Assembly: GCA_021789495.1 (NCBI GenBank)
Contig: JAJYJM010000004.1
Coordinates: forward strand, 52,841-111,202
DNA from: Nitrospirota bacterium
GTDB taxonomy: Bacteria > Nitrospirota > JACRHJ01
Direction: 5' to 3'
DNA: 58,362 nt
The notes under the pieces were generated by a model that did not search any database, was not told the origin of the DNA, and saw only the letters and a list, made by a program, of their open reading frames with translations. The position numbers were made by a program, and so were the translations under genes. Shown piece after piece: positions 6,845-58,362 of the stretch (position 1 is its first letter; the number at the start of each line of letters is the position of its first letter).

Positions 6845-7297
6845 TTATCTCCCGGAGAAGGCCTTCAGCACGTCTTCCTTCCCGACAATGCCTACGAGTT
6901 TTTTACCGGACATTACCGGCAGGAGATGTATGTCTTTCTCCGTCATTATGGTGGCGATTTCGGAAAGGGCCGTGTCCTCGCCTATCGTCACGACGTGCGG
7001 GTTGCATATGTCCCCCACCTTCGTCCCCACCATCTTTTTCAGGTCGTCCTCGAACCTCTTCGAGCTCTCAAGGTATATGAAGGCGTCGAATATCTGCACG
7101 ACCGTCGGGATGTGAAGGCGTTTCTCGCGGTTTATGAGGTCGTGCTCCGTGACGATGCCCACAAGCTCCCCGGCGTCGTCAACGACGGGCGCGCCGGAGA
7201 TGTGGTGCTCGATTAAGAGCCTCGCCAGTTCCTCGACGGTAGTCCTTGGGCCCACGGTAATCACATCGCGGGTCATTACATCCTTTGCGGTAAGCAT
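6845..7297 (-). CDS. Tandem CBS-domain protein
   Basis: 150 residues comprising two CBS motifs (about residues 1-60 and 85-145): VMTRDVITVGPRTTVEELARLL, then HVVTIGEDTALSEIATIM. CBS pairs bind adenine nucleotides and act as energy or redox sensors; no catalytic domain is fused. The start at 7297 (MLTAKDVMTRDVI) is chosen over an upstream ATG at 7366 because the 23 extra residues are just a translated intergenic repeat. The Shine-Dalgarno GGGAGAGGG is supplied by the end of that repeat. It is the first gene of the CBS-tsaE-nadK-udg-hit-mutS unit. Confidence 0.88.
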   Translation of the reverse strand: MLTAKDVMTRDVITVGPRTTVEELARLLIEHHISGAPVVDDAGELVGIVTEHDLINREKRLHIPTVVQIFDAFIYLESSKRFEDDLKKMVGTKVGDICNPHVVTIGEDTALSEIATIMTEKDIHLLPVMSGKKLVGIVGKEDVLKAFSGR

Positions 7298-7303
7298 GGA
7301 TAA

Positions 7304-7350
7304 ACCCTCTCCCGGCCTTAAGGCCACCCTCTCCCACGGGGGGCGAGGGT
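7304..7350 (-). repeat. Two-hairpin palindromic cassette supplying the RBS of the CBS gene
   Basis: 47 bp. On the minus strand it reads ACCCTCGCCCCCCGTGGGAG (hairpin 1), then GGCCTTAAGGCC (hairpin 2), then GGGAGAGGGT, six bases before the ATG at 7297. It matches the cassette before glnB (43816-43863) at both ends and in layout. The terminal GGGAGAGGG is the only credible Shine-Dalgarno for the CBS gene. The SD could pair with the upstream CCCTC of hairpin 1, so translation might depend on folding (inference). Confidence 0.75.
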
Positions 7351-7414
7351 AAAAAGGTATTGCCATTATCAGGTTAATTTTAAAATATCACAGGGAAGGG
7401 AAGCTATCAAGGGA

Positions 7415-43132: not shown

Positions 43133-43185
43133 ACCCTCTCCCGGCGCGAAACCTGCGCCGCCCTCTCCCATGAAAGGGCGAGGGG
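43133..43185 (-). repeat. Two-hairpin palindromic cassette, intergenic copy
   Basis: Same layout as 7304-7350 and 43816-43863: ACCCTCTCCC, then GGCGC-(7)-GCGCC, then CCCTCTCCC...GGGCGAGGGG. Hairpin 2 differs in loop but keeps its pairing. No start codon follows, so this copy has no ribosome-binding role. Confidence 0.7.
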
Positions 43186-43472: not shown

Positions 43473-43871
<399 letters not shown>

Positions 43872-45197
43872 TTATTCTTCGAATATGTATCCGGACTCGC
43901 CGTGCTGGCTGTAGTCCAGGCCCGCCGCCTCGTCTTCCTCGCTTACCCTGAGGCCCATTACCGCGTCCATTACCTTCAAGATTATGCTCGTGCCGACGAA
44001 GGAGTATATTATGCTTGCGGCTACGGCAATCGCCTGGATACCGAGCTGCCTGGGGTTCCCGTAGAACAGGCCGTTTCCGCCGGCTGAGTTCACCGCGACC
44101 GTCGCAAACAGGCCCGTCGCCAGGGCGCCCCATGTCCCGCCGACTCCGTGCACGCCGACTACGTCGAGCGAGTCGTCATAGCCGAATTTCGGCTTCAGGG
44201 ATACCGCAGTGTAGCATAGCACGCCCGCGACAGCGCCGATTATCATCGAGGCCATGGGCGTAACGAAGCCCGACGCCGGGGTTATGGCGACAAGACCCGC
44301 GACGGCGCCGGAAGCCGCGCCAAGGACCGTCGGCTTGCCCCTGTGCATCCATTCCGCGAACATCCACGCAAGCGCCGCCGCCGCAGTGGCGAGGTGCGTC
44401 ACGACGAACGCAGTCCCGGCAAGGCCGCCGGACGTTACCGCGCTCCCGGCGTTGAACCCGAACCAGCCGAACCACAGAAGCGCCGCGCCCAGGACGGTCA
44501 TGGTGAGGTTGTGCGGCGGCATCGGCGTCCTCGGGTAGCCCTTCCTTTTGCCCATCATAAGCGCAGCCGCGAACGCCGCGACGCCGGAGCTTATGTGCAC
44601 GACCGTGCCGCCCGCGAAATCGAGCGCGCCGAGGTTGTGTATCCAGCCGCCCATGCCCCATACCCAGTGCGCGATGGGGTCATAAATGAATGTGCACCAT
44701 ATGAGCGTGAAGACGAGAAACGTCTTGAACTTGAAACGCTCCGCCACCGCGCCCGTGATGAGCGCAGGGGTGATGACGGCGAACATCATCTGGAAGACCA
44801 TGTAGACCTGGTGCGGAATTGTCGCCGCGTAGTCCGGGTTCGGGTTCTGGCCGACGTGGTTCAGGCCGAACCAGGAGAGGTCCCCGATTATATGATGAAA
44901 GTCCGGGCCGAAGGCGAGGGAGTAGCCCCAGAGCGCCCACTGCACCGACACCAGCGCGACGATTATGAAGCTCTGCATGATCGTGCCCAGCACGTTCTTC
45001 CTGCGCACCATGCCGCCGTAGAAAAGGGCCAGGCCGGGCGTCATGAGCATGACGAGCGCCGATGATATAAGCACCCACGCGGTGTCTCCGGAATCGACCT
45101 TCGGGGCCGGGGCCGTAGCCGCCACGGCAACGCCGGCAAAGCCCAATACCAGCAGGGCGACGGTCATTAAACCTGCAAGCTTCTTGATGCTCTTCAC
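43872..45197 (-). CDS. amtB: Ammonium transporter
   Basis: 441 residues from GTG 45197 (MKSIKKLAGLMTVALLVLG), with AAGGAGG upstream. It has a cleavable signal sequence (about 1-25) and then 11 membrane helices. The twin pore histidines are in GGTVVHISSGVA and VVGVHGVGGTWGA, and the signature DFAGGTVVHISSG is seen. The C-terminal tail carries the GlnK-contact region (MGLRVSEEDEAAGLDYSQHGESGY). It is paired with glnB in the usual amtB-glnK style, here in reversed order. A candidate sigma-54 promoter (45243-45258) fits nitrogen-limited expression. Confidence 0.96.
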   Translation of the reverse strand: MKSIKKLAGLMTVALLVLGFAGVAVAATAPAPKVDSGDTAWVLISSALVMLMTPGLALFYGGMVRRKNVLGTIMQSFIIVALVSVQWALWGYSLAFGPDFHHIIGDLSWFGLNHVGQNPNPDYAATIPHQVYMVFQMMFAVITPALITGAVAERFKFKTFLVFTLIWCTFIYDPIAHWVWGMGGWIHNLGALDFAGGTVVHISSGVAAFAAALMMGKRKGYPRTPMPPHNLTMTVLGAALLWFGWFGFNAGSAVTSGGLAGTAFVVTHLATAAAALAWMFAEWMHRGKPTVLGAASGAVAGLVAITPASGFVTPMASMIIGAVAGVLCYTAVSLKPKFGYDDSLDVVGVHGVGGTWGALATGLFATVAVNSAGGNGLFYGNPRQLGIQAIAVAASIIYSFVGTSIILKVMDAVMGLRVSEEDEAAGLDYSQHGESGYIFEE

Positions 45198-45242
45198 GTT
45201 ATTATTCCTCCTTTTTGAGTGGAAACTGTTCGGTATTTGCAT

Positions 45243-56298: not shown

Positions 56299-56320
56299 CG
56301 CGATAAATCGCGCCCCTACA
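56299..56320. repeat. CGCGAT-AA-ATCGCG hairpin supplying the stop codon of the GH57 gene
   Basis: On the minus strand TGTAGGGGCGCGATTTATCG: the TAG stop of the GH57 gene (56316-56318) is the TAG of this sequence, followed by a 14-bp palindrome (56299-56312). One copy only in this window. The rest of the 72-base gap to the FG-GAP gene shows only that gene's upstream region. Confidence 0.45.
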
Positions 56321-58362
56321 AACGCCCCTCCTGCCTTCTCTCCAGCTTCAATTTTATCGAAATCTGCACGTCCGCGCCGGGCGGGAGAGTCAGCCGCCAG
56401 ACGGGGACAACGCTCTCGCACTGGAATACCCGTTCGTACCCGGATTCGGACTGCGATACCGTCTCGACCGGGAAACGCCAGAGCGCCGCCTTCTCGCCAA
56501 ACGAAAGCGTCATGGCATACTTCAGCCACTCGTCCACCATCCGGACTTCCTGCACGTTATTGAGTTCTCCCGCGCTTGCGAAGTTATTCGCCTTCAGGGA
56601 GTGTCCCGCTATCTCGAAATACCTGTCCGGGGAGTTCCCGGCAAGGAGCGAGAAATTGAACTCCACGCCGAACGCCGTGTTGATTTCCTCTTTCCCCTCG
56701 TTCCTTAGGACATACCCGGCATTAAACCCGCTCTCTCCGTCTCGAACTGTTACGGTCTTTTTTACGGACACCCTCTGTCCCCGCACCTCTCCCGCGCGGG
56801 ATAGGGCAACGGAAACCTTGTCGCCCGACTTCTTCACCTTCGACGAATACGGCCCGTTTGCAAAACCGCCAGCCTCCCTGTGCGAGGCTTTCCTGAACGC
56901 CTCGAAGTCCATGTCACCTTCCAGGAAGTGGTCTATAAGAGACGCCTTCCTGTACCAGTCGTAGTGCAGGTAGGAGGAAAGCCCTTCTTCCTTCGCGCCA
57001 ACCCTCTCGTGTATCGTCGCCGCGCCGCCGCCGGTCGACCGGTCGCCGCCGGGATTTTCCGCCTGCGCTCCGGCGAGTTTCCTGTGATATGCCTCCGGAC
57101 GCCGGGCGAGCGTGTTCATCATGTTCATGGCTATGGGGCGGTAGTCCAGCTCGTATATCGCGCCGCCCTCGCCGGGGTCTATGAAAACGGCAACGTCCCT
57201 GTTGGCTATCATCACCTCGTCCACGAGGTCGACGTCAAGGTCGGCGGTCTCGACGGAGAAGGATTCACCCTCTCCCCGGCCCTCTCCCGTCGAGGGAGAG
57301 GGGGAAACATTCTTACCCTCACCCCTTAGTGGGAGAGGGTGGGGCGCAGCGCCGGAAGAGGGTTCCGCAGAGCGCCGGGTGGGGGCATCAGCCGCCGCTT
57401 CCGCTTTTATGAGGTGCCGGTAGACCGCGTCCCGAAGGTGCGGGAGATAGAGTCCGCCGAAGACGCCGTGCCAGTATGCGTCGTTGCACTGTCCGCGCCA
57501 GAGGTCGTCGAAAACGCCGTCATCCGCCGATGGGCCATACGCGCGGTGGAGTTTGCCGCTTACCTGCAACATACGCTTGTGCATGGCGTTCGCCTCCGGA
57601 TATTTCGAGAGGAAGTTCCGGAAGAAGCCGCCCTTTACGAACAGCCTTTTTATGTCGTACCCCGGCTGTGTCTTAAGCTCGTTTATGAAGTCCTCATACT
57701 CCGCCGTCGCCGCCGCCGGAAGGGACCACTCCCCCATCTCCATGTATGAGCACGTCGGGAGATATACCCTGCCCCTTGGGCCTTCGGAGTCGATATATTC
57801 GCTGAACGTCGAGGGTTCTATCCAGTCGGAGTTGTCCTCAAGCGCCTTGATGAACCTGCGCATCCAGCCGTCTTCGTATACCCACTTATGAGTTCCCGGC
57901 CAGACGCCGAACTTCTCCCCGTCGTCCGCCATGACGGAGAGGGTCTTCTCACCCGCGTCCGGCATGGCGCGCCAATGCTCAAGCGTTTCTTGAGGCTCCC
58001 TGAACGGAATCGTATATCTTAACCTCTCGCTTCCGGGGAAGACCTTTACCGTCTTTCCCTGCTCCTCGGTTATGAAATAACCTGTAAGCTCGGAGTCCCT
58101 GAGGCCCGACATCTTGAAGTGGAAGTCGTCCACGACGACATATTCCACGCCCGCGTCGTGCAGCGCGGCGGGCAGGTGGGGCTCCCACACCCTCTCGGCA
58201 AGCCATATCCCCCTGGGCCTTTTGCCGAAATGCTCCAGGACGAACTTCGACATCTTCTCTATCTGCCCAAGCTTGTCCTCGTCCGGGAGCAGGGCGAGTA
58301 TAGGCTCGTAGAACCCGCCGCCCATGACCTCCGCCTGCCCCCTCTCGACCATCGAGGCGACC
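56316..58362 (-). CDS. GH57 4-alpha-glucanotransferase with DUF1925/DUF1926 domains (N-terminus cut by right edge)
   Basis: 682 residues visible. The frame continues past the edge, and about 70 residues are missing by comparison with Thermococcus litoralis enzyme spacing. The catalytic Glu is in GIWLAERVWEP and the acid/base Asp 91 residues later in MADDGEKFGVWPG, the spacing of E123/D214 in that enzyme. The DUF1925 linker (QCNDAYWHGVFGGLYLPHLR) and the beta-rich DUF1926 domain follow. It transfers alpha-1,4-glucan chains in glycogen turnover. Two insertions are made of repeat DNA: about 40 residues including PHPLPLRGEG and SPSTGEGRGEGE (57267-57363), and PGGDRSTGGG (57030-57055), both between conserved blocks. 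It complements the branching enzyme at 30951-32687. Confidence 0.92.
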   Translation of the reverse strand, partial: VASMVERGQAEVMGGGFYEPILALLPDEDKLGQIEKMSKFVLEHFGKRPRGIWLAERVWEPHLPAALHDAGVEYVVVDDFHFKMSGLRDSELTGYFITEEQGKTVKVFPGSERLRYTIPFREPQETLEHWRAMPDAGEKTLSVMADDGEKFGVWPGTHKWVYEDGWMRRFIKALEDNSDWIEPSTFSEYIDSEGPRGRVYLPTCSYMEMGEWSLPAAATAEYEDFINELKTQPGYDIKRLFVKGGFFRNFLSKYPEANAMHKRMLQVSGKLHRAYGPSADDGVFDDLWRGQCNDAYWHGVFGGLYLPHLRDAVYRHLIKAEAAADAPTRRSAEPSSGAAPHPLPLRGEGKNVSPSPSTGEGRGEGESFSVETADLDVDLVDEVMIANRDVAVFIDPGEGGAIYELDYRPIAMNMMNTLARRPEAYHRKLAGAQAENPGGDRSTGGGAATIHERVGAKEEGLSSYLHYDWYRKASLIDHFLEGDMDFEAFRKASHREAGGFANGPYSSKVKKSGDKVSVALSRAGEVRGQRVSVKKTVTVRDGESGFNAGYVLRNEGKEEINTAFGVEFNFSLLAGNSPDRYFEIAGHSLKANNFASAGELNNVQEVRMVDEWLKYAMTLSFGEKAALWRFPVETVSQSESGYERVFQCESVVPVWRLTLPPGADVQISIKLKLERRQEGRL
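57030..57055. repeat. GCCGGTCGACCGGT palindrome with GC-rich tail in the GH57 gene
   Basis: GCCGGTCGACCGGT plus CGCCGCCGGG. The first 25 bases match 34328-34352 at the tsf-pyrH junction with about three differences. It is read in frame as PGGDRSTGGG between AYHRKL and TIHERVGAKEEGL. Confidence 0.7.
57267..57363. repeat. Two CTCTCCC-type palindromic cassettes read in frame in the GH57 gene
   Basis: 57267-57304 is a short copy without hairpin 2. 57315-57363 is a full cassette in the orientation opposite to the one before glnB, with ACCCTC...GAGAGGGT, GGCGCAGCGCC and a final GAGGGT. Together they encode about 32 residues at the DUF1925/DUF1926 boundary without a stop codon or frameshift. Confidence 0.75.

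Follow-up and report, generated by a model that had tools for sequence, protein, structure and literature searches.

A dispersed triplex-type repeat of Nitrospirota whose purine arm is the putative Shine-Dalgarno sequence of a few genes

Relation to known triplex-motif repeats

The TM_ECO/PIT elements described by Holder et al. (2015; PMC4666352), who cite Hoyne et al., include TM_ECO, the intrastrand triplex motif of E. coli, in which a Y block CCCTC[TG]CCC is followed by an R1 block GGGAGAGGG, a second loop of TTA or CCG, and an R2 block GGGTGAGGG. Triplex motifs are defined there by the block order Y-R-R, by stems of 6-15 nt and by at most one mismatched triad, with loops limited to 1-6 nt (ITxF) or 0-10 nt (Hoyne) (PMC4666352). 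TM_ECO was reported to form a triplex in vitro and to be linked to genome instability, and no preferred distance to ORFs was seen in E. coli (PMC4666352). In Enterobacter sp. 638, repeats of the form CCCTCTCCCXX(X)GGGAGAGGG were described as presumed terminators at 3' ends (PMC2869309).

We analysed a window, the whole of a 58,362-nt stretch of Nitrospirota DNA (contig JAJYJM010000004.1), in which a preliminary description had noted the same cassette immediately 5' of two genes, one encoding a CBS-domain protein (ATG 7297) and the other glnB (ATG 43811). Both cassettes are present, with a length of 48-49 bp, and both gene names hold: the 6845-7297 product is assigned a CBS domain (PF00571, E=9e-34) and the glnB product is assigned to P-II (PF00543, E=2e-31). 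The features at the CBS gene are as follows.

6845-7297, minus strand: CBS-domain protein gene, ATG 7297
7304-7350, minus strand: whole cassette at the CBS gene (Y, loop 1, R1, hairpin 2, R2)
7349-7341, minus strand: Y block CCCTCGCCC, partner of R1 with one G/A mismatch
Between Y and R1, minus strand: loop 1, CCCGT
7335-7327, minus strand: R1 block GGGAGAGGG
7325-7314, minus strand: hairpin 2, GGCCTTAAGGCC, in the second loop
7313-7305, minus strand: R2 block GGGAGAGGG, putative SD of the CBS gene, dG with the anti-SD -8.2 kcal/mol
7382-7410, minus strand: promoter-like TTGATA-17-TATTTT 5' of the CBS gene, kept in three species including a cassette-free one

Read along the minus strand, this leader has the order CCCTCGCCC-CCCGT-GGGAGAGGG-T-GGCCTTAAGGCC-GGGAGAGGG-T-TTATCC-ATG, with a spacing of 7 nt between the final G of R2 and the ATG. 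The second cassette occupies the gap between amtB and glnB.

43473-43811, minus strand: glnB (P-II), ATG 43811
43816-43863, minus strand: whole cassette in the amtB-glnB gap
43862-43855, minus strand: Y block CCCTCCCC
Between Y and R1, minus strand: loop 1, ACTCGT
43848-43840, minus strand: R1 block GGGGGAGGG
43838-43826, minus strand: hairpin 2, GGCGCAAAGCGCC
43825-43817, minus strand: R2 block GGGAGAGGG, putative SD of glnB, dG -8.2 kcal/mol
43872-45242, minus strand: amtB ammonium transporter gene, adjoining the glnB cassette on its 5' side

Here the order on the minus strand is CCCTCCCC-ACTCGT-GGGGGAGGG-T-GGCGCAAAGCGCC-GGGAGAGGG-T-TCCT-ATG, and 5 nt separate the last G of R2 from the ATG. 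The preliminary description gave this spacing as 5-6 bases. As had been described, the R2 arm GGGAGAGGG is the only Shine-Dalgarno (SD) sequence of either gene.

The cassette has the same Y (CCCTC[TG]CCC), R1 (GGGAGAGGG) and R2 (GGGTGAGGG or GGGAGAGGG) as TM_ECO/PIT, in the same order. Like those elements it is dispersed, found on both strands and present in inverted pairs of two loop-2 types. It also appears to be mostly intergenic and without a fixed distance from ORFs: its distances are spread and ATG triplets near it are distributed flat, but 17 of the 104 full copies that we collected as loci from six genomes overlap predicted ORFs. The main difference is loop 2, which is TTA or CCG in TM_ECO/PIT and mostly a 12-14 nt hairpin in Nitrospirota (TGGCC..GGCC, TGGCGC..GCGCC); copies from one genome, G005 (ACCCTCTCCCTTCAATGGGAGAGGGTGGCCCGAAGGGCCGGGTGAGGG), have all three blocks in common with TM_ECO. 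Only the cassette combines amplification in one Nitrospirota family with some coding copies and the apparent use of R2 as an SD at a few genes. Measured against the published definition, the CBS copy has Y-R-R blocks (CCCTCGCCC / GGGAGAGGG / GGGAGAGGG) with one G-A mismatch, and the glnB copy has them with one mismatched triad. An inverted short-loop partner of A/B type, which makes a pair of two loop-2 types, lies on the 5' side of 30 of the 104 copies, on the 3' side of 4, and on the same strand in 1. Loop 1 measures 5-6 nt, and the self-complementary loop 2, with 13 nt (CBS) or 14 nt (glnB), exceeds the published limits, so we call the cassette a TM_ECO variant and not a strict member. Judged by its sequence, it is a hairpin-loop form of a known kind of triplex-motif repeat, closely related to TM_ECO/PIT. 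The view that it would be a new kind of part is therefore not sustained, since this Y-R-R repeat was already known (PMC4666352).

Two other kinds of repeat are comparable in part. The Enterobacter sp. 638 repeats share the Y-R1 hairpin and occur in about 100 dispersed copies; the passages that describe them mention no second purine arm or hairpin 2, which the cassette has (PMC2869309). Pneumococcal BOX elements (PMC3049150) are likewise dispersed, are transcribed as 5' or 3' additions to operons and sometimes lie in coding sequences. Their sequence is unrelated, however, and BOX ORFs are without good SD candidates, whereas the cassette supplies an SD.

Copies of the cassette and their position relative to genes

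The plan of the cassette is Y-R-hairpin-R, that is CCCTCNCCC / GGGAGAGGG / GGCC..GGCC / GGGAGAGGG. The window contains 19 occurrences of the motif GGGAGAGGGT with at most one mismatch, where 4.8 would be expected and 0 of 100 shuffles reach 19, and the whole cassette has about 22 copies in the 2.08-Mb genome of the window (53 contigs). The cassette is therefore not a product of chance. A covariance model run on four same-genus genomes and one same-family genome found many more copies, and the Y-R1-hairpin-R2 plan is common to all 104 copies of the set, which occur in both orientations. Amplification of the exact hairpin-loop pattern is confined to family f1 (61 matches in six genomes); outside it, 6 other genomes of a 390-genome phylum sample have one or two matches each. 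Together with the cassette-free orthologous sites described below, these copies, about 22 in one genome and 104 in six, support a dispersed, inserted repeat, in keeping with the earlier suggestion of a mobile one. The window itself contains two further copies, neither of which serves as a leader.

43133-43185, minus strand: third copy (intergenic), hairpin 2 GGCGCAGGTTTCGCGCC; next predicted start about 750 nt away
57315-57363, plus strand: fourth copy, with an inverted type-B partner at 57267-57303

Some copies belong to larger units. A right flank of about 120-470 nt with 70-97% identity is common to many copies (L149-L170 in G002; L032, L037, L038, L041, L050 and L051 in G000), which makes the cassette at the same time the left end portion of a longer, apparently non-coding, dispersed repeat; for this, Rfam gave no match in the two loci scanned. 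In G005, about 20 nearly identical copies (L186-L204, L224, L225) differ mostly in hairpin 2, which points to a recent burst accompanied by paired changes in this hairpin. A short-loop triplex-type motif, CCCCTCTACCTCCGGGAGAGGGGCAGGGGGTGAGGG, lies within the first 1.3 kb of the window, at 1172-1209.

If the cassette were a ready-made leader, as had been proposed, its copies should stand before start codons, and random placement relative to starts had been named beforehand as the contrary outcome. In the six genomes, 46 of the 104 copies have a downstream gene start on the same strand. R2 lies 4-9 nt before a predicted start in five copies, which represent four independent sites. Three of these are clear and one, L045 with a TTG start, is uncertain, as are single start assignments, because genes were called by a simple score of codon usage for which the window served as training set. 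The other downstream starts spread to more than 200 nt from R2, at 1-3 per 10-nt bin as far as 80 nt; at the mirror position, on the Y side, there are 33 starts, none within 19 nt. ATG triplets in successive 6-nt bins after R2 number 6, 8, 6, 9, 12, 5 and 7, a flat distribution. Neither gene calling around the 104 copies nor this ATG histogram gave a significant peak at SD distance, and consistent placement before start codons was not found among the 104 copies; the slight surplus of starts 4-9 nt after R2 could reflect a weak but genuine preference. The outcome is thus close to random placement, in agreement with the lack of a preferred distance reported for E. coli, and we reject a general leader function of the cassette. 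Because most copies lie away from starts, a leader position looks like an occasional insertion accident and not like a purpose-built regulatory switch.

The 17 copies that overlap predicted coding sequences include two pairs at matching places in two species each (L040:1500-1547 with L222:1048-1096, and L036:1501-1549 with L178:738-786), so in-gene copies persist. The window has such a case in its GH57 4-alpha-glucanotransferase gene (56316-58352), which holds the repeat pair 57267-57363 (minus strand) in frame, within its linker. The insertion amounts to about 40 residues between two domains and is absent from the G002-G005 orthologues; the G001 orthologue has a different insertion at that site. 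This in-frame pair resembles the palindromic elements found in coding genes of Rickettsia.

Filled and empty sites at the CBS and glnB genes

At the CBS gene, the cassette of G000 and G002 sits between the same conserved promoter-like element and the same ATG; G004 has no cassette and reads ttaacaacttacGGAGattctgcccATG. At glnB, the cassette is found only in the window's species among the same-genus orthologues compared; G001-G003 are cassette-free, with sequences such as gattaGGAGgcgtcgttccATG and an SD such as GGAG shortly 5' of the ATG. More distant members of the phylum have both genes without the cassette, from which it follows that the filled state is derived. Since same-genus cassette-free orthologues of both genes have an ordinary SD, the repeats were inserted and the ribosome-binding site (RBS) was taken over. 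No transposase or target-site duplication was identified for the cassette, so insertion is read solely from the empty sites. A further takeover event is probable, from sequence comparison, at a macB-like permease gene of G001, where the cassette ends 9 nt 5' of the ATG; four other same-genus orthologues lack it, with a gap sequence that is different or absent. This gap (L237-L242) has a differing sequence in nearly every species and other repeats in several, and may be a hot spot for repeat insertion.

Predicted SD strength and exposure at the filled sites are in line with those at the empty ones. Pairing of the SD with the anti-SD has an energy of -8.2 kcal/mol at the filled sites, compared with -6.6 to -10.3 at the empty ones and a median of -6.2 for 38 window genes, and predicted SD exposure is 0.27-0.42 at filled sites versus 0.33-0.69 in cassette-free orthologues. 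From these leaders we infer that ribosomes would use R2 at both the CBS gene and glnB. Insertions near starts presumably survive only where R2 can serve in this way, and they were possibly joined through GGAG microhomology between R2 and the old SD. Taken together, the comparisons of filled and empty sites lend good support to exaptation of the repeat as an RBS at a few genes.

The CBS leader matches at 107 of 110 positions between two species, against 78% identity at their third codon positions. The entire leader, with its promoter, is therefore under constraint and might as such be regulatory. The conserved stretch takes in part of the promoter, and a special role of the cassette therefore does not follow.

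Pairing within the cassette and competing explanations

We consider it likely that the cassette is a dispersed triplex-type repeat that was inserted at a few genes, where R2 replaced the native SD, and that it does no switching. The preliminary description had suggested instead that it could switch RBS access. On this reading Y would pair with either R1, which leaves the SD open, or R2, which closes it, and the cassette would be a portable translational regulator of the CBS gene and glnB. R1 and R2 are nearly identical, which makes either pairing possible in the CBS copy; the minimum free energy (MFE) fold of that leader in a 71-nt context closes R2; and the leader is strongly conserved in two species. 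Against this, 58 of 91 copies have a Y-R1 pair at position 6 of Y but only 24 a Y-R2 pair, and in the 13 copies of C-G form Y has C and R1 always G, whereas R2 has A or T save for one C. Y thus covaries with R1 and not with R2. Consistent with this, the Y-R1 stem of the glnB copy is perfect and its Y-R2 pairing mismatched, so that its Y cannot pair R2 as well as R1. Predicted ground states differ between the CBS and glnB leaders, the state of one leader varies with its context, and cassette-free orthologues have the same level of SD exposure. No conserved alternative pairing over the SD was found, most copies are not leaders, and Rfam gave no match to the cassette up to E=0.1, so that we reject a riboswitch or other known RNA family. 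Covariation and the exposure at empty sites speak against Y-R2 switching; that the cassette acts as a switch is unlikely, and as a portable regulator of both genes very unlikely. We infer that the structure of the cassette has no switching role.

Hairpin 2 gives evidence of a different kind. As had been seen from the first two copies, its arms changed together: 174 of 184 pairs are Watson-Crick over 39 distinct versions of variable sequence, and the fourth position of the stem is paired in 36 of these versions, where shuffling leads one to expect 17. These pairs were recounted on extracted cores, as the automatic RNAalifold alignment was poor in hairpin 1. Even the near-identical G005 copies show paired changes (GGCCC/GGGCC, GGCGC/GCGCC, GGTCC/GGACC). 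Such covariation could come from selection for RNA pairing in transcripts, whether for protein binding or for an RNA fold, and both the excess at pair 4 and the G005 changes agree with this. However, templating by DNA hairpins (quasi-palindrome correction) or selection on a cruciform yields the same pattern, and the repeat stands in both orientations relative to genes. Mismatches of G-T (2 of 184) and A-C (3 of 184) are about equally rare, so neither strand is favoured as RNA, and DNA and RNA pairing are not distinguished by these counts. We therefore reject hairpin-2 covariation as proof of RNA function and regard selection on RNA as quite improbable. A function of the cassette as DNA, with an intrastrand triplex or cruciform acting in replication, recombination or transcription and with the position and SD use at CBS and glnB incidental, is a serious possibility that we hold at somewhat less than an even chance. 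It would be consistent with the shared architecture of TM_ECO and its reported in vitro triplex and genome instability (PMC4666352), with the occurrence of both orientations and in-gene copies, and with the common R2 variant GGGTGAGGG, which disrupts pairing with Y yet still gives a permitted T-A-T triad. Loop 2 (13-14 nt) is over the published limits, though the hairpin joins its ends. Such a function could exist alongside takeover of the SD and would not be a rival to exaptation at those few sites. An origin as a REP/REPIN moved by a RAYT transposase would agree with a short, palindromic, dispersed repeat that is frequently found in inverted pairs, and with the Y1_Tnp genes of G000, G003 and G005. 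GTAG/CGTC REPs (PMC3733652) are likewise short palindromes with compensatory stem changes and frequent dimers, but they have one stem plus a tag, whereas the cassette has three blocks, no tag and no RAYT link that we found. No GTAG or CGTC tag is conserved at the stem foot in the flanks of collected copies, G001, G002 and G004 have no Y1_Tnp gene, no cassette copies flank the G000 Y1_Tnp locus, and a scan with the cassette model gave none at the loci of G003 and G005. On the missing tag and the lack of a flanking transposase we reject this origin as very unlikely.

The explanation that we prefer is thus SD takeover by a repeat. On this view the cassette is a copy of a dispersed, non-autonomous three-block repeat (Y-R1-R2), closely related to TM_ECO/PIT, whose second loop has grown into a self-complementary hairpin in one Nitrospirota family. 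Its copies enter intergenic DNA and sometimes genes, and many of them form an inverted pair with a motif of the classical type B. At CBS, glnB and probably the macB-like permease gene of G001, a copy landed against the start codon and the native SD was lost. Translation would then start from the purine arm R2, GGGAGAGGG, which is SD-like by chance, and the Y-R1 hairpin and hairpin 2 would form an inert or mildly structural leader upstream. A stronger version, in which the purine arm is a recurrent SD donor, GGAG microhomology guides insertion or recombination, and native RBSs are repeatedly converted, we think unlikely. If true, it would place translation of CBS, glnB and the macB-like permease under a foldable, triplex-capable leader.

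These findings do not establish a new regulatory mechanism. Comparison of filled with empty relatives shows that a dispersed repeat replaced the RBS of conserved genes, among them that of the nitrogen regulator glnB, and that the predicted strength did not suffer; it provides a clean natural case of repeat exaptation at the level of translation. It also adds a hairpin-loop variant from Nitrospirota to the triplex-motif repeats, which had been described mainly in E. coli and other bacteria.
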